Shown: positions 1 to 9,045 of the stretch, piece by piece
How the letters are laid out: every line of letters begins with the position of its first letter
How positions within the stretch are numbered: the first letter of the stretch is position 1
DNA from: Acidobacteriota bacterium
GTDB taxonomy: Bacteria > Acidobacteriota > Terriglobia > Acidiferrales > UBA7541
Assembly (NCBI GenBank): GCA_003167215.1
Contig: PMTV01000023.1
Span: 1 to 64,000, forward strand
Length of the DNA stretch: 64,000 nucleotides
Direction of reading: 5' to 3'
Made by a program: the position numbers and the translations under genes
The notes under the pieces: model-generated
What the model was told of the DNA's origin: nothing
What the model saw: only the letters and a program-made list of their open reading frames with translations
Database searches by the model: none

Positions 1-302
1 TAATTTATGTCAGACCTCCCTGCTAATTCCTGGTAAGTCGGATTACCGGACAAGTGCCTTACCATTACTTCACATTTCCGGTAAGCGCTGCCAGCTCAAC
101 CGGTCGTTGCAACACCATCCAATACATTGATTCGACAATCCTTCCCCGGGAGAAGCGATCTGCCGTCATGTTAGAAGTCAGCGACGGGGATGCCAAGCGC
201 CATATTGCTGTGCTGCAGGATGAGCACACCGTAATGCTGCGAGCGTGGGGTGGCAGCTCGCCCCGGAAGCGGCGCCGGGGCGAGCACGACGCTGATGTGA
301 CG
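1..302. other. intergenic / left edge, no gene supported
   Basis: An open frame crosses this stretch on the plus strand, but it runs into the antisense of the Crp/Fnr gene, has no recognisable domain and no ribosome binding site. I see short GGTAA/TTACC inverted arms near 33-48 but nothing that makes a convincing terminator or operator. The end of a neighbouring gene may lie just outside the window. Confidence 0.4.
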
Positions 303-968
303 TCAAGTCGGCTGGTGAATCTTCTGGTGAAGCAAGTACGCGGTGCGCAGAGAACTTCGAACTCTCATTCCGCCGTTGTAGGCGATGAATCCCCGCTTCC
401 TGAATCGACTAATATAAAAATTCGTTCGGCTCCGCGTGGTACCAATCATATTCGCCAAAACGCCCTGACTTATCTTGGGAATTCGGCCGCCTTTCGCACT
501 GAACTGGGCTAGCTGCAAAAGCACGTGCGCGAGGCGTTCTTCGGTTGAATTGACAAGCAGATCCACCAGTTGTTCCTGATATTTCTTGATGACGGACAGC
601 AGGTAGGACACGAAAACATTTGAAGTGACACTGTCCCCGCGAAGAATGCGGATCATCTCTTTCTTTTTGATGGGGAAGATCGAGCAGGAGCCAATCGCAG
701 TGGCCGTGCATAAACGCAGAGGACTGCCTGCGAGGCAAGACTGACCGAAGAAGTCACCGGCGCCCAACACGGTGATAACCGCTGGCCGTCGACCCTTCGA
801 TCGGATGGTGAGCATCACGTCGCCTTCCCGGATATAGAAGAGAGTGTCAGCTTTCTTACCTTGGGAGTAGATTATTTGTTTGTTTCGATAGTGCGAGATC
901 GCTCCGCCCAGGATGCATTTGAAGATAGACCGTTCAGCGCGCGCCGACAGCGTACTGGTCATTCTCAT
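303..968 (-). CDS. Crp/Fnr-family transcriptional regulator
   Basis: Predicted DNA-binding regulator of the CRP/FNR superfamily, about 221 residues from the chosen start. The N-terminal half reads as a cyclic-nucleotide-binding-type beta-barrel: it contains QGKKADTLFYIREGDVML, then GAGDFFGQSCL, the usual Gly-rich turn after the effector pocket. A long dimerisation helix and a C-terminal winged helix follow, with recognition helix TTRSRTNFYISRFRKRGF. There are no N-terminal cysteines that could bind an FNR iron-sulfur cluster, so the effector is unknown. The ATG at 968 is chosen because GAGGAAG lies about 5 bases upstream; a longer frame starts at 1082 without a good site. It is divergent from a second family member across about 200 bp, so both may be controlled from the shared spacer. 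Confidence 0.85.
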   Translation of the reverse strand: MRMTSTLSARAERSIFKCILGGAISHYRNKQIIYSQGKKADTLFYIREGDVMLTIRSKGRRPAVITVLGAGDFFGQSCLAGSPLRLCTATAIGSCSIFPIKKKEMIRILRGDSVTSNVFVSYLLSVIKKYQEQLVDLLVNSTEERLAHVLLQLAQFSAKGGRIPKISQGVLANMIGTTRSRTNFYISRFRKRGFIAYNGGMRVRSSLRTAYLLHQKIHQPT

Positions 969-1173
969 AAGCTTCCTCGTTTTGCGCATCCCTGATCGAT
1001 CCGCGTCTGTTCCGTAGGGTACACTACATAGCCCATTTTTACTTGCGATTATAATGCCTCTCCGTATAGAACCTGAGGTCACTGTCTAATCAGGCAAGGG
1101 CTGTCTTGAAATTCTTGATGTTACATTCGCAGCATGTGTTGGGCGTGGGAATGCCAACCAGGGAAGGATCGTT

Positions 1174-1938
1174 TTGAGGCGCAAACCGTCGCAAAACCTG
1201 CGGGCAGGCAAACGGACCAATGCCGCCGGAAAACCAATACGCAACAAGATTCTCTTGGCCATGACCGACGTAGAGTTCCGCGTGATTCGTCCTCATCTCA
1301 AGTATGTGTCGCTGCCATCTCATCTCAGGCTTCACGAGCCGCATCAGACATTTAAATTTGTTTATTTTCCCAATGAAGGTTTGATCTCTCTCGTGGTCGT
1401 AATGGCGAACGGAAAGACCGTCGAAGCGGGCATTATTGGGAGCGAAGGTGTTGCAGGGTTGCCGGGGGTGGCCAGTCTCAGGCGTGGTCCTCTTCGCGAA
1501 GTAATGCAAATTGGGGGTAATGGTTTCAGAGTTAAAATCCGTGACTTGAAAAGAACGTTGGATTCCACTCCCGATCTTCAACGAATCTTCGCGCGTTACA
1601 CCATGATGCTGGGTCTACATGTTGCGCAAACCGCAGCGTGCAATCGCTTGCATGACATCGATCGACGTCTCGCCCGCTGGCTGCTTATGGCTAACGACAG
1701 AGTGGATTCCGGGACGCTTCGCATCACTCACGATTTTCTTGCGACCATGCTTGGCACGGACCGGCCTAGCGTGTCCCTGGCAGCCGGTCTTTTCCAGAGA
1801 ATGAACATCATCAGATACAGTCGTGGGGCAGTGAAGATTTTGAATCGCAGTGCACTCCAAAACCAGGCATGTGAATGCTACGCAGTCATTCAGCGGTATA
1901 CCCAGATACTTCCTCCCGCCGCCGGATCACACGCTTAG
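1174..1938 (+). CDS. Crp/Fnr-family transcriptional regulator, TTG start
   Basis: Second CRP/FNR-type regulator, about 254 residues, only distantly like its divergent neighbour. The sensor half contains FVYFPNEGLISLVVVMANGKTVEAGIIG, shown here only as a position marker at roughly residues 62-90, typical of acidobacterial and proteobacterial Crp_2-type regulators; the ligand-contact arginine is not obvious. The C-terminal winged helix carries ITHDFLATMLGTDRPSVS, a good recognition region. TTG at 1174 is preceded by GGAAGG at a 6-base spacing; an in-frame ATG at 1261 is the alternative. A role in responding to redox or metabolic signals is only inferred from the family. Confidence 0.8.
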   Translation: MRRKPSQNLRAGKRTNAAGKPIRNKILLAMTDVEFRVIRPHLKYVSLPSHLRLHEPHQTFKFVYFPNEGLISLVVVMANGKTVEAGIIGSEGVAGLPGVASLRRGPLREVMQIGGNGFRVKIRDLKRTLDSTPDLQRIFARYTMMLGLHVAQTAACNRLHDIDRRLARWLLMANDRVDSGTLRITHDFLATMLGTDRPSVSLAAGLFQRMNIIRYSRGAVKILNRSALQNQACECYAVIQRYTQILPPAAGSHA

Positions 1939-2108
1939 AGAAGTGAGCGTAAACTCATAGGACCACAAGGTGCGCGACGGAGCGCGAGCATGCGAGCAGC
2001 CATCTGAAGTTAACGCTGTTTCCTAATTGCAAAGGATGAATAGGACCGCCAGATGGTCTAGCGCTTTTTCGATAGCCCTTTTGCGATCTTTCAACTTGAT
2101 TGCCCCTT

Positions 2109-2291
2109 TCAGACCTCACCCTTTTTAATTTCCGCTTCGATCTTCATGAACTCGCGGCGCGCCCGGCCGTAACATTTTTCGCAGAGTGCATGAGCGACGT
2201 GCGGACGGTCATCATGTGTACAGAAACGCAGCACGATCCCAACTGTGAAGGTTGCAAGAGCTGCGATGATTCCAGTCGCGAATCTTGCCAT
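2109..2291 (-). CDS. possible 60-residue membrane peptide with Cys/His motif
   Basis: This frame would give one N-terminal membrane segment (residues 5-22, ATGIIAALATFTVGIVL) followed by a polar tail with CTHDD, ALCEKC and a Lys/Glu-rich end. That could be a small zinc-binding membrane protein. It overlaps completely an open frame on the plus strand with equally good composition, and there is no clear ribosome binding site. Only one of the two is likely to be real. Confidence 0.25.
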   Translation of the reverse strand: MARFATGIIAALATFTVGIVLRFCTHDDRPHVAHALCEKCYGRARREFMKIEAEIKKGEV

Positions 2292-2489
2292 CGCCTGTGC
2301 AGCCGCTCTGAAGCGATCCGACGCATGCGCCGATGCAGCGAGACAGGAACCTACGTCGTGCTCGAGAAAGACCAGAAGATCTACGCGCGCGAACTGAAGC
2401 GCTGGTCCACGGAAGTGATCGCCGCCCGCTGCCAACAGCTAGGTTACAAACCACCCTCCGAAACGCCAGTAGAATCGATGGCTGCTTAA
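2190..2489 (+). CDS. small cysteine-rich hypothetical protein
   Basis: About 99 residues. The N-terminal half is cysteine-rich (CTETQHDPNCEGCKSC and later CHRLCSRSEA), the C-terminal half is helical and charged (EKDQKIYARELKRWSTEV). Third codon positions are GC-rich in the second half, as in coding sequence of this genome. No family recognised. The start is uncertain: ATG at 2190 has no strong ribosome binding site, ATG at 2217 is an alternative, and the open frame extends back to a TTG at 2100. It competes with a minus-strand frame at 2109-2291. Confidence 0.35.
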   Translation: MSDVRTVIMCTETQHDPNCEGCKSCDDSSRESCHRLCSRSEAIRRMRRCSETGTYVVLEKDQKIYARELKRWSTEVIAARCQQLGYKPPSETPVESMAA

Positions 2490-3144
2490 GCGCAGACCAA
2501 CCCTACAGCGACGCAGCAAAACAGATCCAAACAATACGCGATCCACTGCATAACCATCGCTGTGATCGGCTCATATCGGCAAGAAAGCGACGAGAAATCA
2601 AACAACACTGCGGAACGCGTGCATAACCAGACCTTCTCACACTGGTTGGCGATCGTTTGTAAGTCTCTGAAAATAAGATGTATATGGGCTATTGGAAATC
2701 GACAGCCAAACTCGCTGCAACCGTCAGCCTAGTTTTATTTACGCTTCCGTGAAATGCGCAGCGCAAATTTCTTAGTACAAGGCTGACCTTTGCGGGCTGT
2801 TGGCCACGCCTTGCCGGTTTGTTGCAAGACGGTTGGCCGGGCATTAAAGGCCCGTTAGTTGCGAGCGCTGTGCCCGCGGATCGCGCGCTTGCCCTGTCTA
2901 TCACCGGTTGCCATTCCGCGCAGAGAGGCCGACGATGGTTTCAAGCAGCGTAGAGGGCCCGTAACACACAACGCATTTATCAGCGACGCATTTCGCCGCT
3001 AGGCAAGTTCAGCTCGTGGGAAAACCAAGACTTTAATTTCTTAAGATCTTCCAACGCTCCCACGATTGGAACTGGTCCGTCCTGACGTTCCCCAAAGAGC
3101 GTCAGGGCGGGCTTGCCTACACTTCCGCGCGAGAGGGAATTGGA
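2490..3144. other. gene-poor spacer before the phage-like block
   Basis: No gene I can support. A 24-codon frame at 2678-2752 would encode a signal-peptide-like hydrophobic stub (MYMGYWKSTAKLAATVSLVL then stop), perhaps the remnant of a secreted protein. A perfect 7-bp inverted repeat, CCTGACG at 3081-3087 and CGTCAGG at 3100-3106, sits 40 bp upstream of the terminase-like gene. No tRNA or attachment-site duplication is visible. Confidence 0.4.
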
Positions 3145-3723
3145 ATGGGACGCCAGGCTAAATCGGCGGTTCAAAACTGGCTTCACGGAACAACGTCGCA
3201 AGCGAAAACCGCGCCCGTTGTCTTCGCTGCCGGTCGTCCGCGCATACCCAAGCACTTGTCGCCGCAAGGAAGAAAAGCGTTGAAACGTGCTGTGCAGATC
3301 CTCGAACAGAGGCGGACGTTGACCGAATCAGACGAGCCGATACTCACGCTGTTCGCGGACACCTACGCATTTTGGGTGAACGCAAAAACGGAAGTTGGCG
3401 ATGAACTGCTGATCTCGACAACAGTGACTGACAATAATGGAACCGTCCGAACCGTCAGAAGAACAAATCCGATGATCAAAGTGATGGAAGCCGCGGCGGT
3501 TCGCTTGTTTGCGCTTTCAAAGTCTCTGGGCTTCTCTCAAGTGGACATCGGTCGCTGCAAAACGACCGCTGTCGATCCTGGAAAAGAAATTATTCCAGGT
3601 TCCGCGCGAGATATGTACCCCGAACTCTACGACGCAAGCGGAAAGTGGATCGGAGAAAAGGAATCCGAGAAAGTGATTCCGTTCGTTCCGCTTCCGCCGC
3701 CAACAGAACCGGAGGAAGAATAA
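3145..3723 (+). CDS. phage terminase small subunit, P27-like
   Basis: Likely the DNA-recognition subunit of a phage packaging terminase, about 192 residues. The family pattern is visible in order: GRPRIPKHLSPQGRKALKRA near residue 30, the helix with LTESDEPILTLFADTYAFW, then TNPMIKVMEAAAVRLFALSK and SLGFSQVDIGR, matching the P27 layout of a leading Gly-Arg-Pro, an LT.xD helix, an N-P segment and a late LG(F/L)S motif. ATG follows GAGAGGGAATTGGA. The next gene overlaps its stop by one base. No large subunit, portal or capsid gene follows, so this is either a remnant or a domesticated/satellite element. Family assignment is by motif, not by alignment. Confidence 0.7.
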   Translation: MGRQAKSAVQNWLHGTTSQAKTAPVVFAAGRPRIPKHLSPQGRKALKRAVQILEQRRTLTESDEPILTLFADTYAFWVNAKTEVGDELLISTTVTDNNGTVRTVRRTNPMIKVMEAAAVRLFALSKSLGFSQVDIGRCKTTAVDPGKEIIPGSARDMYPELYDASGKWIGEKESEKVIPFVPLPPPTEPEEE

Positions 3724-3992
3724 TGGCACTGACTGATTCACTAGAAGCGCTTGCGATCGTTGGCATCAACACAGATGGACTCGATCCGTTGGGCATCCTG
3801 ATTCTGGACGGCCGCGTCATGCACGATTCTGTTGTGTGCGCGCACAAGAAAAATTACATGACAGGCAAGATGCAGCGCGGCGGGCCGTGGAGTTGTTTGT
3901 TCACAATTGAAGAATACAATCAGCTGTTGCGAGACATGCCAGACACCGAGAAGGACGCGCTTCGTGCGCGTGTAACGGCGCTGCCCGCGTGA
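3723..3992 (+). CDS. hypothetical protein of the phage-like block
   Basis: About 89 residues. Its ATG overlaps the stop of the terminase-like gene (TAATG), which argues for translational coupling and against the longer upstream frame. The sequence is small, mixed and without membrane segments. It has an MTGKMQRGGPWSCLF stretch and a C-terminal helix rich in Glu, Lys and Arg (DMPDTEKDALRARVTA). No family recognised. The position immediately after the terminase small subunit suggests a phage morphogenesis or accessory role, by inference only. Confidence 0.6.
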   Translation: MALTDSLEALAIVGINTDGLDPLGILILDGRVMHDSVVCAHKKNYMTGKMQRGGPWSCLFTIEEYNQLLRDMPDTEKDALRARVTALPA

Positions 3993-4023
3993 AATGAGTT
4001 AGCAGTACAATACGAGCACCCCC

Positions 4024-4812
4024 ATGACAGCATCCATCGTGCAGCAAGATAGCGCAGAAGTCACCTCATCCGAAACCTCATGGACGCAGACGTTTTTTGA
4101 GCACGGCTATGGCATGAAAGACGTGACGGCAGGGAATGCCCTCGTGGTTTTTTGGGCTGGAGTTGTCCCGAATCAGGTCAGTTCGATGACCGACAATTGC
4201 GGAAACACTTACGTTCAAGTGTCCGGCGCTGCTATTAATGACGCCAACTCAGGCCGCGCGTCCGATGTGTGGTGGGCAAAAAACGTCGCGCAAGTTACCG
4301 ACCCAGGCAAAATATTCGCACTCACAATAAATCTAAGCGGAACGGCGTCAGGTTCCTGGGGCGCTGTAATTTTTGAAGTAAGCGGAATCAACGGCGCGAC
4401 TATCGTGGCTGCCACAGCGTCTATCGATGACACAAATGACAGTACGTTTTCTGGCCCTTCGCTAAACGGTGGCCGTGAGGCTGTCTTTGTCACGGGACTC
4501 GCCGGGATTTTTGGAGCGACAGCGACGGTCGCTTTACCTTGGGCAATCGTCCAAACGCCCGGCATCAGCAACGGAGGTGGTGGCTCTACTGAGAACAACG
4601 GCGGACAGTCTTGTGCTGCCCTTGTATCCAGAGGAACGCAGCAAGCCATATTCACGCCGCAAACTGCGTCACCGCATTGGTTCATTGGAGCCATCAGCGG
4701 TGTTGCCTTCATCCCAACCTCGGGTGCGGTTCAACGTCAATTTTTCTCGGTAGTGTGCGGCAGGTTAGCGGAATTCCTGCGAATGAAAATGATGTCTTCT
4801 TGGGCACTGTGA
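4024..4812 (+). CDS. phage-like surface/tail protein, frameshifted at a T5 run
   Basis: About 262 residues as read, no signal peptide, rich in Gly, Ser, Thr, Asn and Ala, with alternating beta-strand-like segments (GNALVVFWAGVVPNQ, GSWGAVIFEVSGINGA, REAVFVTGLAGIFGATATVA). This is the texture of virion surface or tail-fibre beta-sandwich proteins. It ends in an anomalous tail (RLAEFLRMKMMSSWAL) after the T5 run at 4741-4745. The -1 frame continues instead with a regular repeat (see the next entry), so the ancestral protein probably had a longer repeat C-terminus. Adding one T restores Q-F-F-L-G-S-V and joins the two parts. The upstream domain ends at about residue 238. Confidence 0.55.
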   Translation: MTASIVQQDSAEVTSSETSWTQTFFEHGYGMKDVTAGNALVVFWAGVVPNQVSSMTDNCGNTYVQVSGAAINDANSGRASDVWWAKNVAQVTDPGKIFALTINLSGTASGSWGAVIFEVSGINGATIVAATASIDDTNDSTFSGPSLNGGREAVFVTGLAGIFGATATVALPWAIVQTPGISNGGGGSTENNGGQSCAALVSRGTQQAIFTPQTASPHWFIGAISGVAFIPTSGAVQRQFFSVVCGRLAEFLRMKMMSSWAL

Positions 4813-4985
4813 AGGTGATCAGCGCAGCTCCAGCCAATTCATCGAATCCTTACCTTGGGCACGTGAATGTTGTGTCGTCACCGGACGCCGGGAGAGGGAA
4901 CCTCACGCTAGGAGAAGTCGTAATTGTGGAAAGCGCTCCGGCAAATGACGGCGATCCGTGGCTTGGAAGTGTTGTAACGGAGTAG
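4741..4985 (+). pseudogene. out-of-frame repeat C-terminus of the tail-like protein
   Basis: In the -1 frame relative to the preceding gene this stretch encodes about 80 residues in repeat units of 26-29. The units read FLGSVRQVSGIPANENDV, FLGTVKVISAAPANSSNP, YLGHVNVVSSPDAGRGN, LTLGEVVIVESAPANDGDP, WLGSVV, with a consensus of aromatic or Leu, Leu-Gly, x-Val, x-Val, Ser, two or three residues, Pro-Ala-Asn. It has no start codon or ribosome binding site of its own, so it is either the displaced end of the upstream gene, a programmed -1 frameshift product, or the effect of a one-base sequence error. Confidence 0.6.
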
Positions 4986-5186
4986 AGTAATCCGCCAAAA
5001 GGTTTTCGACGTGACCTGCGATGACCGAAATCGAAACACAAATTTGTTACGCAATGTTCTACCACAGGGAAAGATGCGTTCGGAATCGTCGAGCAGTGTG
5101 AAACGCATCGCATGCGCCGAAGGACTGGTCACTAGACGCGCGAACGCGTGAGCGAGGAAGCCGTCCCAGGCTTTCGACTTTCTCCC

Positions 5187-5215
5187 TTGACGCCTTCCAA
5201 TATCCGAGCTAATTT
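5187..5215 (+). promoter_or_regulatory. sigma-70-type promoter for the structured RNA
   Basis: TTGACG (5187-5192), a 17-base spacer and TAATTT (5210-5215), inside a locally AT-rich patch. A start site about 7 bases downstream would begin a transcript near 5222 that ends at the intrinsic terminator ending at 5323. Inferred from consensus only. Confidence 0.45.
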
Positions 5216-5221
5216 ATATCT

Positions 5222-5323
5222 TCGGACTGTTTTTCTTGTGTTCGAACACGAAAGAGCGCTGGCCGCCGGTCGCGCTCTAACGGGATTCGCGATGCTTCTT
5301 CTTTCGCGAATCCCTTTTTTTTT
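5222..5323 (+). ncRNA. putative structured small RNA or attenuator leader
   Basis: About 100 nt that fold almost completely into three consecutive hairpins. First, arms around GTGTTCGAACAC (5238-5249). Second, AGAGCGC (5253-5259) with GCGCTCT (5272-5278), whose 12-base loop can pair further (GGCC with GGTC). Third, GGGATTCGCGA (5282-5292) with TCGCGAATCCC (5304-5314), followed by nine T. It has its own promoter-like element just upstream and no open frame. It is either an independent small RNA of the phage-like island, or a leader that ends or attenuates transcription 36 bp before the start of the gene at 5359. No known family is recognised. Confidence 0.5.
5282..5323 (+). terminator. strong Rho-independent terminator
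   Basis: Perfect 11-bp stem, GGGATTCGCGA at 5282-5292 with TCGCGAATCCC at 5304-5314, an 11-base loop, then nine consecutive T at 5315-5323. It terminates plus-strand transcription and is the clearest intrinsic terminator in the window. Confidence 0.9.
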
Positions 5324-5358
5324 GGCGCGATGGCTTCGCGGGCGAGGGTTGGGCACGA

Positions 5359-6534
5359 ATGGCTCTGACAAGTGCAGCACCGAAGAATTCTGCTGGCGAA
5401 AGCAAAAATCACGGAACCCTGAGCACTCCTCAGCTCTTGATCGGTCCTGTCGATTACGGCACGACCGGTCAACTTTTCGATGAGATCCGCGATTTTCTTG
5501 CCCAGCACCCCGGGTTGACAACCGACGCAGTTCTCAAACTTTCTTATTTTTCTTTCGCGATTCTTTTCCCGGAGTGCGCAGGAATTTGGCCGTTTGTCTC
5601 AGTCGTTGCGTCGGACTCTGTTGGCTCGAGCCTGCTTCTGCGAATGATCGCGTGCACGTGCTTGGCTCCCCTGCATATTGGCGAGGTAACGCTGAATTCG
5701 ATCCTGACGCTGCCGCGGTTACCGTACCCCACAACAATGCTAATCGATCAGCTGGCTCCGAACAAAGAACTCGAGCGTGTCCTACGGATCATGAGCCGTC
5801 CCGGAGGCCGCATTGTTCGGAAGGGAAAATTCCACGACATCTCCTTCCCGACACTCGTGTGCACCGCCGAGCCGCTGCGCGATCGCTGGATTGTAGATCA
5901 GGCGATCCACGTTGGGCTCACTCCGACCCGCGGTAGCCTGCCACTATTCGATCGGCAATCGCTGAGCGAATTTGCGCGAAAACTGCGACCGAAACTGGCA
6001 CGTTATCGCGAGCTGAATTTCGCAAAGATTCGGGACTCGCATTTTGACGCTCCCGGATTCACCTCCCCGACGCGCGACATCGCAACCATGCTGGGAAATG
6101 CGATTGCGGATGATTCATCGTTGCAGCGTTGCGTACTGGTGATCCTCGAGTCGCAGGACCAAGAGGTCCGAATCGGCCGGACGGACTGGATCGAAGCCAT
6201 CGTGGCCGAAGCAGTGCTGTTTTTATCCCACGAAGGCGGCCGCTCTCAGGCGCGGGTGGGTGAGATCACTGACATCGTGAACGGAATTCTTAAAGGCAGG
6301 GGACAAAATATCGCGCTGGACCCGCGCGCGGTCGGCCATCACCTGCGCGCTCTCGGAATTTTTTCCGTGCGGCTAAACCGTGCTGGACGCGGCATTCGTT
6401 TCACTAAAGAAATTCGTCGGAAGATCCATAGGTTGGCGGACGCCTATAACGTGCTGACGCCTCTGAACCAAGTGGGTTGCGAATTCTGCGCGGAAACAAC
6501 ATCGCGCACGGATGCGCCGAATCAACCGAAATGA
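5359..6534 (+). CDS. unrecognised island protein with degenerate P-loop-like core
   Basis: About 391 residues, soluble. Residues ~85-100 read VASDSVGSSLLLRMIACTC, in the place where a DNA-dependent ATPase would carry a Walker A loop, but the Gly-Lys-Ser/Thr is missing. TMLIDQLAP near residue 130 resembles a Walker B strand with an Asp, and LVCTAEPLRDRW follows where a sensor region would be. The C-terminal third (ITDIVNGILKGRGQN, HHLRALGIFSVRLNRAGRGI) looks like a winged-helix-type DNA-binding domain. I infer a relative of phage/plasmid primase-helicase-like proteins that has lost ATP binding; the family is not identified. Transcription must read through or start after the strong terminator 36 bp upstream. 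A Cys pair near the end (CEFCAETTS) is unexplained. Confidence 0.75.
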   Translation: MALTSAAPKNSAGESKNHGTLSTPQLLIGPVDYGTTGQLFDEIRDFLAQHPGLTTDAVLKLSYFSFAILFPECAGIWPFVSVVASDSVGSSLLLRMIACTCLAPLHIGEVTLNSILTLPRLPYPTTMLIDQLAPNKELERVLRIMSRPGGRIVRKGKFHDISFPTLVCTAEPLRDRWIVDQAIHVGLTPTRGSLPLFDRQSLSEFARKLRPKLARYRELNFAKIRDSHFDAPGFTSPTRDIATMLGNAIADDSSLQRCVLVILESQDQEVRIGRTDWIEAIVAEAVLFLSHEGGRSQARVGEITDIVNGILKGRGQNIALDPRAVGHHLRALGIFSVRLNRAGRGIRFTKEIRRKIHRLADAYNVLTPLNQVGCEFCAETTSRTDAPNQPK

Positions 6535-6540
6535 AAGTAT

Positions 6541-6564
6541 GCACGTCGCGCACGTCATGCACGT
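6541..6564. repeat. three GCACGT direct repeats at exact 9-nt spacing
   Basis: GCACGT occurs at 6541-6546, 6550-6555 and 6559-6564, each separated by three bases (CGC, CAT). It lies in the short gap between two island genes, about 36 bp before the ATG at 6600 and upstream of its ribosome binding site. This looks like an operator with iterated half-sites rather than chance, but no binding protein is known. Confidence 0.5.
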
Positions 6565-6599
6565 ATTTTCAGGTAAATCAGGCCTAAGGGAGAAACAAA

Positions 6600-7220
6600 A
6601 TGAAACAAACGTCAGAAAAGTGGGATTCTTTGGTTCAGCGCCTCAACCAGGGTGGATGCCCTGTACTTGCGAATCATGGGTATAAGGTCACTCCGGTAGG
6701 ATTGGCCGTAGAGCCAATCCCGGGCATGAATTTCAGTAGAATTTTCGACCTCAACGAAGGCGGATCCGGCTACGCGATCGAAGTGACCCTCCGCAACGAC
6801 GCGAGCCGCGCAATCGACATCGTGGGCTTCCGGATTCGAACGCCTTGGGGGATTCCAAAGCTTACGCTGCTACAGGCGCCGAACTATGCCTTTCCGGAGC
6901 CGGGTCCTTCCTACGATGCGGATTTCGTAATCAACGCATATTTCCAAAAATGCAAGAGCCGGCTGCAGCCGGGCAAGGAAATCGCAGGCCTGCTCGTCGC
7001 GTCGTCGGAAGACGAGATTGCTGAGGAGATCCAAAACTTCGCTCCCGTTTTCCTCGCACTCGACGTTTTCGACTCGCGCCGCAACGTTTTTTCGGGTCAA
7101 TTCGGCGTGCGCGTGGATCGCCGCGAGCGTATTGCGCGTGAATTGAGAAATCAGAAAACACAGTCGGCGCAACCGAAGTCAGTTCCGAAACCGGATCAAG
7201 TTCACGAAGTTTGTGTTTAA
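6600..7220 (+). CDS. hypothetical protein, phage-like island
   Basis: About 206 residues, no signal peptide or membrane segment. ATG is preceded by AAGGGAG at 8 bases. The middle looks like a small beta-sandwich (GYAIEVTLRNDASRAIDIVGF, at residues ~58-78 and reported here only in part; then RLQPGKEIAGLLVASSEDEI and PVFLALDVFDSRRNVFSG). The C-terminus is basic and then low-complexity (Arg, Glu, Gln, Lys, Pro). No family recognised. Together with the gene at 5359 it probably forms one transcriptional unit downstream of the structured RNA. It is convergent with the antiporter gene. Confidence 0.65.
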   Translation: MKQTSEKWDSLVQRLNQGGCPVLANHGYKVTPVGLAVEPIPGMNFSRIFDLNEGGSGYAIEVTLRNDASRAIDIVGFRIRTPWGIPKLTLLQAPNYAFPEPGPSYDADFVINAYFQKCKSRLQPGKEIAGLLVASSEDEIAEEIQNFAPVFLALDVFDSRRNVFSGQFGVRVDRRERIARELRNQKTQSAQPKSVPKPDQVHEVCV

Positions 7221-7356
7221 CATGTAATTTAATTAACTTTAGAGTAAATATACGGGCCCGATGCGTAGTGAGCGCCCACTCGGTCAGGCGAGCGCGCCGG
7301 GGTCTGCTTAGTTCTTTTACTTCCCGGCGAGGTCCACCGGGACACGCGCAGCGGAT

Positions 7357-9045
7357 TCACTTCACCGGGGCATTGAGTGCTGCAACGAGTTCGACGAAAG
7401 TCGAAGCTTCCAGCACCTGATCGATGGCTTCCTTGCGACTGAACATTTCCCCGGCGTCACCCAACAAGTCGTGCTGAGCCTGATTGTCTCCCGTGAGAAT
7501 TAGAATAATGAGACGCGAGAGTTTGCCGTCTCTTGCGTCGAAATCGATACCAGCCTCTGACTTGCCAATTACCACGATCGGATGCGGAAGGCCGCCAACA
7601 CGGGCGTGAGGAATCGCCAAGCTGTTTTCCCAGCCGCTGGGGACAACCCGCTCGCGCTCCAATACGAGGCGCAAAAACCGCTCCGGTGCGTTGCTGACAG
7701 CGTCTGCTGCGATCTCACACATATGCTGAAGAGCTTCATCCTTTGTGCGGAACTTCATGGCCGGCAGAAAGAGTTTGGTAGTGACGGTATCCTTCAAGGT
7801 CAGGACCCGGCGCCGGCGCAGCAGGAAATGAATGGCGGGGGCGGAGACCAGCGAGGTGAATAGCGCCATGACCACGAGCGCTACGAACATGGTTTCGCGA
7901 ATCAATCCGGCCTGAAGCGCGAGGAGCCCCAGAATCATCTCCATAGCACCTCTGGCGTTCATGGCCAGACCCACGCCCCATGAAGTGCGGCGATCCATGC
8001 CTCCCAGGTGTGCTCCCCAGCCAGCGCCTAGCAGCTTCCCCAGGCAGGCAACCCCGATAACTGTCGCGGTGATGCCGAGGTTGAAGTTCGAGACGAAATT
8101 GGTGCGAAGACCAATGCTGGCGAAAAAGAACGGCGCGAATACGTTGGTGACAATGGAGTGGATGTGCTCAGACGTTCGTTTTCTCAGATGAGTGGATTCG
8201 CCGACGGCAATCCCAGTAATGAAAGCACCGAAGACGGCATGGATTCCCGCAAATTCCGCGAAGGCTGCACCGGCAAGAGTGAGCGTGAAAATAAAACCTA
8301 AAACGCCGCCTGGCCAGCTCGTGTGGGCCTGGATGAAGGGGAGTATTTTGTCGATCAACCAACGAACAAGGGTGAGTGCGAGCAAAGTGAAGGCGGCGAC
8401 AAGGAGAATCGTGCGCTTAACGCCACCGAAAGAATGCGAGCCGGTATTCATCATGCCGAGAATCATGGAGAACAGAATCCAGCCTACAAGATCGTCGAAC
8501 ATCGCCGAGGACATCACCACGGTGCCCATCTCAGTTCGAATGAGATTGAGATCCATTAGGATTTTGGCGATCACGGGAAGCGCGGATATCGAAAGCGCGG
8601 TGCCTACAAACAGGGCGAAGATCAGCCTGCTGGCACCCGCTTCGGCGCCCAGGAACCGCGGGAATGCGCCCGCTGCAGAGAAGCCCAAAGCGAACGGAAT
8701 GATTACCCCGAAGAAGCTGACCAGCAGGGCGCTCTTGCCTTGGCGAAAAATGCTGCGTAAGTCGATTTCGAGGCCGGCGGTGAGGAGGAAGAAAACGACA
8801 CCGATGGTCGTGACGGTTTCGAGCACGATGGGCATGGCGCCGGTACTGGGAAACAATGCCGCATAGATCTGGGGCCTGAAATGGCCGAGGAGAGTGGGTC
8901 CCAACAGGATTCCTGCAAGGATTTCGCCCAGAACGGAGGGCTGCCCCAGTTTCTGCATCAATTCGCCGGCGAGCTTGGCGGTTCCGAGGAGGACGGCGAG
9001 GGCCAGGAACATGGTCATCACTTCGTGCTGTGTCAGATGGGGCAT
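7357..9045 (-). CDS. CPA2-type cation/H+ antiporter fused to PTS EIIA-like domain
   Basis: About 562 residues. Residues 1 to ~395 form about 12 membrane segments of the monovalent cation:proton antiporter-2 (KefB/NapA-like) fold. Typical motifs are GEILAGILLGPTLLGHF near residue 40 and MFDDLVGWILFSMI, which carries the Asp pair of the ion site. Residues ~410-562 match the fold of PTS EIIA type 2 (mannitol/fructose): ENSLAIPHARVGGLPHPIV places a His at about residue 480 where the phospho-accepting His sits. The likely role is Na+ or K+/H+ exchange at the cytoplasmic membrane, gated or tuned by the EIIA domain. No sugar-specific EIIB/EIIC lies nearby, so the domain is probably regulatory. A gap of about 220 bp precedes it. 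Confidence 0.9.
   Translation of the reverse strand: MPHLTQHEVMTMFLALAVLLGTAKLAGELMQKLGQPSVLGEILAGILLGPTLLGHFRPQIYAALFPSTGAMPIVLETVTTIGVVFFLLTAGLEIDLRSIFRQGKSALLVSFFGVIIPFALGFSAAGAFPRFLGAEAGASRLIFALFVGTALSISALPVIAKILMDLNLIRTEMGTVVMSSAMFDDLVGWILFSMILGMMNTGSHSFGGVKRTILLVAAFTLLALTLVRWLIDKILPFIQAHTSWPGGVLGFIFTLTLAGAAFAEFAGIHAVFGAFITGIAVGESTHLRKRTSEHIHSIVTNVFAPFFFASIGLRTNFVSNFNLGITATVIGVACLGKLLGAGWGAHLGGMDRRTSWGVGLAMNARGAMEMILGLLALQAGLIRETMFVALVVMALFTSLVSAPAIHFLLRRRRVLTLKDTVTTKLFLPAMKFRTKDEALQHMCEIAADAVSNAPERFLRLVLERERVVPSGWENSLAIPHARVGGLPHPIVVIGKSEAGIDFDARDGKLSRLIILILTGDNQAQHDLLGDAGEMFSRKEAIDQVLEASTFVELVAALNAPVK

Follow-up and report, generated by a model that had tools for sequence, protein, structure and literature searches.

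A candidate terminated leader RNA upstream of a primase-helicase-like gene in an acidobacterial island

In phage lambda, the pR' promoter, the 6S leader RNA and the tR' terminator form a gate for the late genes, and read-through needs a factor. The CI RNA of P4-type elements is linked to the C4 antisense RNA (Rfam RF01695). P4 immunity involves a structured RNA of short length, and transcription of the replication genes stops early, within their leader (PMC4825925). IsrK, from the Gifsy-1 prophage of Salmonella, is a short RNA with an intrinsic terminator that a minority of transcription reads through into the downstream genes, and the read-through mRNA is in addition a trans target of IsrK, in a process involving AntQ (PMC4825925, where Q read-through is mentioned as well). 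Mobile attenuators recur as well-conserved copies, one class of them before unrelated genes, and a function has been assigned to hardly any of the predicted acidobacterial attenuators (PMC2965389). Two structured non-coding RNAs, Acido-1 and Acido-Lenti-1 (RF01686, RF01687), have been reported from Acidobacteria (PMC2864571).

The locus described here lies at 5187-5323 of the window, the 64,000-nucleotide stretch of an Acidobacteriota genome that was analysed (contig PMTV01000023.1, positions 1 to 64,000). As in IsrK, transcription from an island-borne promoter would yield a short RNA and stop at an intrinsic terminator, here deduced from the sequence alone, but the two share no demonstrated sequence relation, and trans action and AntQ are features of IsrK only. 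With lambda pR'/6S/tR' the locus has the predicted arrangement in common, namely the order of promoter, short terminated RNA, terminator and gene. The P4 CI RNA is likewise short, structured and terminated early in a leader; in contrast to CI/C4, however, the stretch did not match the C4 covariance model even at E<=10, no seqA/seqC-like complementary copies were noticed in the leader, and the downstream protein has no Walker motifs. The terminator stands directly upstream of a gene, as in the mobile attenuators (PMC2965389), but the unit is single-copy and recurs, in diverged form, before the same gene family.

Unlike Acido-1 and Acido-Lenti-1, the locus has no Rfam match: nothing in the whole window reached a gathering score, and a permissive search of 5150-5370 (E<=10) returned matches at chance level only. 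The initial annotation had matched the stretch to no known RNA family, and the covariance search agreed with it. When 61 relatives and 399 class genomes were searched at the DNA level, the window itself was the sole match; searches of phages and plasmids gave no match to the element, and exact patterns were not found in viral and genome contigs. The element is single-copy in its genome, and a covariance model of this single RNA gave nothing convincing in 299 class genomes. A partial match to that model in one of the 299 (G126, E 0.057) is best read as chance, and a second match in the source genome (E 0.9) was not terminator-like and appears to sit in a coding region. The one partner sequence that turned up, in the same-genus genome G006, is only weakly similar, and the alignment of its upstream part is untrustworthy.

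Table 1 Features at and around the candidate leader RNA in the window.
Feature	Position	Strand	Remarks
Open frame crossing the element	5148-5483	+	
Open frames crossing the element	5132-5521 and 5209-5508	-	
-35-like hexamer TTGACG	5187-5192	+	G006 unit likewise starts with TTGACG
Weak -10-like hexamer TAATTT	5210-5215	+	17-nt spacer after TTGACG; 3/6 to consensus
Presumed ~102-nt terminated RNA	5222-5323	+	start placed ~7 nt past the -10 box
First hairpin, ambiguous	5222-5251	+	pairing 5222-5227/5240-5245 or 5236-5241/5246-5251
Second hairpin	5253-5278	+	G+C-rich; 11 pairs with one bulge
Intrinsic terminator	5282-5323	+	perfect 11-bp stem, 11-nt pyrimidine-rich loop, T9
Gap from T9 to start codon	5324-5358	+	35 nt; no + strand promoter match
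Gene 5359	5359-6534	+	391-aa protein; fold search: phage primase-helicase/AAA+ ATPases, moderate scores
Partner gene 6600	6600-7220	+	206 aa

Promoter-like site, fold and terminator

The promoter-like sequence proposed in the initial annotation was present (Table 1), with a good -35 box and the expected spacing, but its -10 box is weak and the site was missing from the list returned by a promoter scan. The pattern TTGAC-N18-TANNNT occurred twice in the window against 0.85 expected. A predicted promoter and short terminated RNA at 5187-5323 are supported at the level of sequence.

The perfect stem and the nine T that had been annotated were found, with the arms GGGATTCGCGA and TCGCGAATCCC at 5282-5292 and 5304-5314, seven G-C pairs among the 11 bp and the T9 directly after the stem at 5315-5323, as in an intrinsic terminator. 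Its score of 27 placed it among the top three in 213 kb of the source genome (the others scored 28 and 25), the sample from which the terminator rates for that genome were taken, and it is the only one of the three with a TTGAC within 200 nt upstream. Strong intrinsic terminators were rare in both genomes sampled, with three in 213 kb of the source genome and two in 159 kb of G006.

The presumed transcript folded at -42.3 kcal/mol (z -4.65), with none of 200 shuffles as stable, and the stretch 5217-5323 reached a z of -5.2; the G+C-adjusted stability of the core topped that of all 2556 forward-strand 107-nt stretches of the window that were compared. Because the terminator alone gave a z of -5.5 and the part without it -2.5, the strong fold statistic belongs mainly to the terminator. 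Three adjacent hairpins had been annotated, and the number is right, although the first has two alternative pairings, of which the presumed transcript would adopt the one beginning at its 5' end; the 12-bp palindrome GTGTTCGAACAC at 5238-5249 is the centre of the other. The element at 5187-5323 is a real terminator-shaped element and a probable terminated leader RNA of a known kind.

That no open frame lies inside the element, as first annotated, was literally wrong, since one frame on the plus strand and two on the minus strand run through it. All three look non-coding, and a coding reading of the element was rejected: the codon scores are negative and the plus-strand frame has no relatives.

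The downstream gene pair and a similar unit in a second genome

The structure predicted for the 5359 protein (pLDDT 81) resembled primase-helicase and other AAA+ ATPases best. The protein has neither the P-loop (GPPGSGKT in the homologue L009) nor the DE of the L009 Walker B motif. Its N-terminal domain is about 75-95 aa shorter than that of its homologues, and no credible match to the missing part was found hidden upstream. It is possibly a non-catalytic derivative of an AAA+/primase-helicase-like protein. Its start codon looks real, because the first residues, MALTSAAPKNSAGE, resemble MAVTIASPIATSGE of the G006 homologue. A minority of family and class genomes have homologues, at roughly 20-36% identity; close relatives were not found in genome contigs, nor were viral relatives of 5359, of the terminase gene or of the 4024 gene. 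Since a homologue of 6600 also lies downstream of the 5359 homologue in G101, 5359 and 6600 are probably a pair.

The unit in G006, on the minus strand of L104, has TTGACG at 3120, followed by TTATAAC, a 9-bp stem at 3037-3014, T9 and the ATG of a 5359 homologue at 2904; the stem and T9 start 83 nt downstream of TTGACG and the homologue a further 100 nt on. This promoter, too, was absent from the list of the promoter scan. Among the strong terminators in 213 kb of the source genome and 159 kb of G006, the two units are the only ones with TTGAC within 200 nt upstream. Their end-to-end alignment scored above 500 shuffles (64.5 against 40.1 +/- 7.1), a test that overstates the similarity because the two are alike mainly in the terminator hairpin, whose arms are not independent of each other. 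In 114 kb of homologue loci the best match of the single-sequence model was the G006 site (12.8 bits, E 0.33). TTGACG has a probability of about 0.023-0.025 of lying in any 80 nt. The unit was found after about 20 homologue loci had been examined, and about 20 other 5359 homologues, including that of the same-genus genome G007, have no such unit. It starts about 26 nt past the end of a transposase remnant, so that a shared mobile-element origin is possible; further copies of this IS end, which would define its boundary, were not found in the sequences searched. The G006 unit is best taken as moderate evidence for linkage to the 5359 family and not as proof of homology.

Island setting and competing explanations

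Four related genomes share the order of the window across the host antiporter gene at 7357-9045, and in all of them this colinearity ends at about 7344-7359. Positions 1-7356, which reach the contig end, are therefore island or variable-site material. The break coincides with the 3' end of the antiporter gene, and a tRNA-Met lies just past it in G019 and 1.4 kb off in G015 (positions concerned: window 7344-7360; L057 5436-5510; L058 8385-8459). The site is likely a tRNA-linked variable one, with the left end of the island falling outside this contig. The island part of the window also holds a phage terminase small subunit (3145-3723; PF05119, phrog_83), with no large subunit recognised among the nearby proteins searched, and a phage-like gene at 4024-4985 that is split over two frames (4024-4812 and 4611-4985), the first part having no homologue in 89 family genomes. 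A dispersed repeat at 20-165 has many partial copies, with ~75-96% identity, elsewhere in the genome and genus. Two adjoining genes encode CRP-family regulators (303-1082 and 1174-1938), the second with a paralogue-like match in its own genome (L052) and matches in several genus genomes.

In such a setting the terminator, with or without its promoter, might have come to lie before 5359 by chance insertion of a mobile element or prophage, as a 'mobile attenuator' or insulator whose RNA is functionless. Terminators from the 3' ends of insertion sequences and prophages have been exapted upstream of genes (PMC2965389), the unit lies behind a frameshifted phage-like gene, within an island that breaks the host's colinearity at 7356, its G006 counterpart follows the transposase remnant, and terminators of this strength are otherwise rare in the source genome. 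No mobile family was found, however, as there was no second copy in the genome and none in the phage, plasmid and viral collections; the unit recurs before one gene family and not before unrelated genes, and a plain 3' terminator leaves the TTGACG upstream in both cases unexplained. We regard chance insertion as somewhat unlikely. That G+C-rich palindromes and a T run merely coincide here and play no part in transcription has a negligible probability: the weak -10 box and the modest fold statistic outside the terminator would suit it, but the terminator's own z, its rank in 213 kb and the recurrence in G006 would not.

The initial annotation had left the choice between an independent small RNA and an attenuator- or riboswitch-like leader. 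A trans-acting island RNA, with its position before 5359 incidental, would agree with the promoter-like site, the compact and fully folded RNA, the U9 terminator and the pyrimidine-rich loop; it is an improbable reading, as the similar unit before the G006 homologue speaks for linkage, no other promoter is visible for 5359, and antisense pairing to the starts of five island genes gave nothing notable. The leader alternative gained from the same G006 unit and from the empty gap before 5359, but the switch attached to it is not supported. Position, terminator and three structured domains would fit a riboswitch that senses a ligand, or a classical attenuator, in which terminator and antiterminator folds compete; yet forbidding the terminator stem raised the energy from -42.3 to -22.3 kcal/mol with no replacement fold, and as an antiterminator fold was not found there is no support for a classical riboswitch. 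The leader is, moreover, absent from most 5359 homologues, no aptamer-like sequence is conserved and the permissive Rfam search stayed at chance level, all of which makes a switch of this kind very improbable. A type III toxin-antitoxin system (ToxIN-like) was considered and rejected, no repeat unit being visible by eye and the downstream protein, of 391 aa and primase-helicase/AAA+-like, not being a small RNase toxin.

A possible gate on the 5359-6600 pair

The reading we favour, tentatively, is that of a terminated leader acting as a cis gate for the 5359-6600 pair. The sigma-70-type promoter at 5187-5215, if it fires, would start the structured RNA of about 100 nt, and most of these transcripts would end at the strong terminator, so that the short RNA would be the usual product. 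A minority of polymerases may read through into the pair, possibly under regulation. Because the gap is only 35 nt and no promoter match was found there, any transcript of 5359 should have to pass through the terminator, which would therefore be a gate irrespective of where it came from. The simplest assumption for its opening is leaky read-through or an antitermination factor. The likeliest regulator would be an antitermination factor encoded by the element or a phage, or the short RNA itself, given that the leader contains no antiterminator fold. A more specific version, in which a lineage-specific island RNA of independent origin gates a degenerate primase-helicase-like gene by a logic like that of P4 immunity or IsrK, seems quite improbable.

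The cis gate, if true, would involve no new mechanism. Should the unit be real, it would offer a simple case of a mobile-island gene mostly silenced by a terminated leader, and this in a genome with few strong intrinsic terminators.
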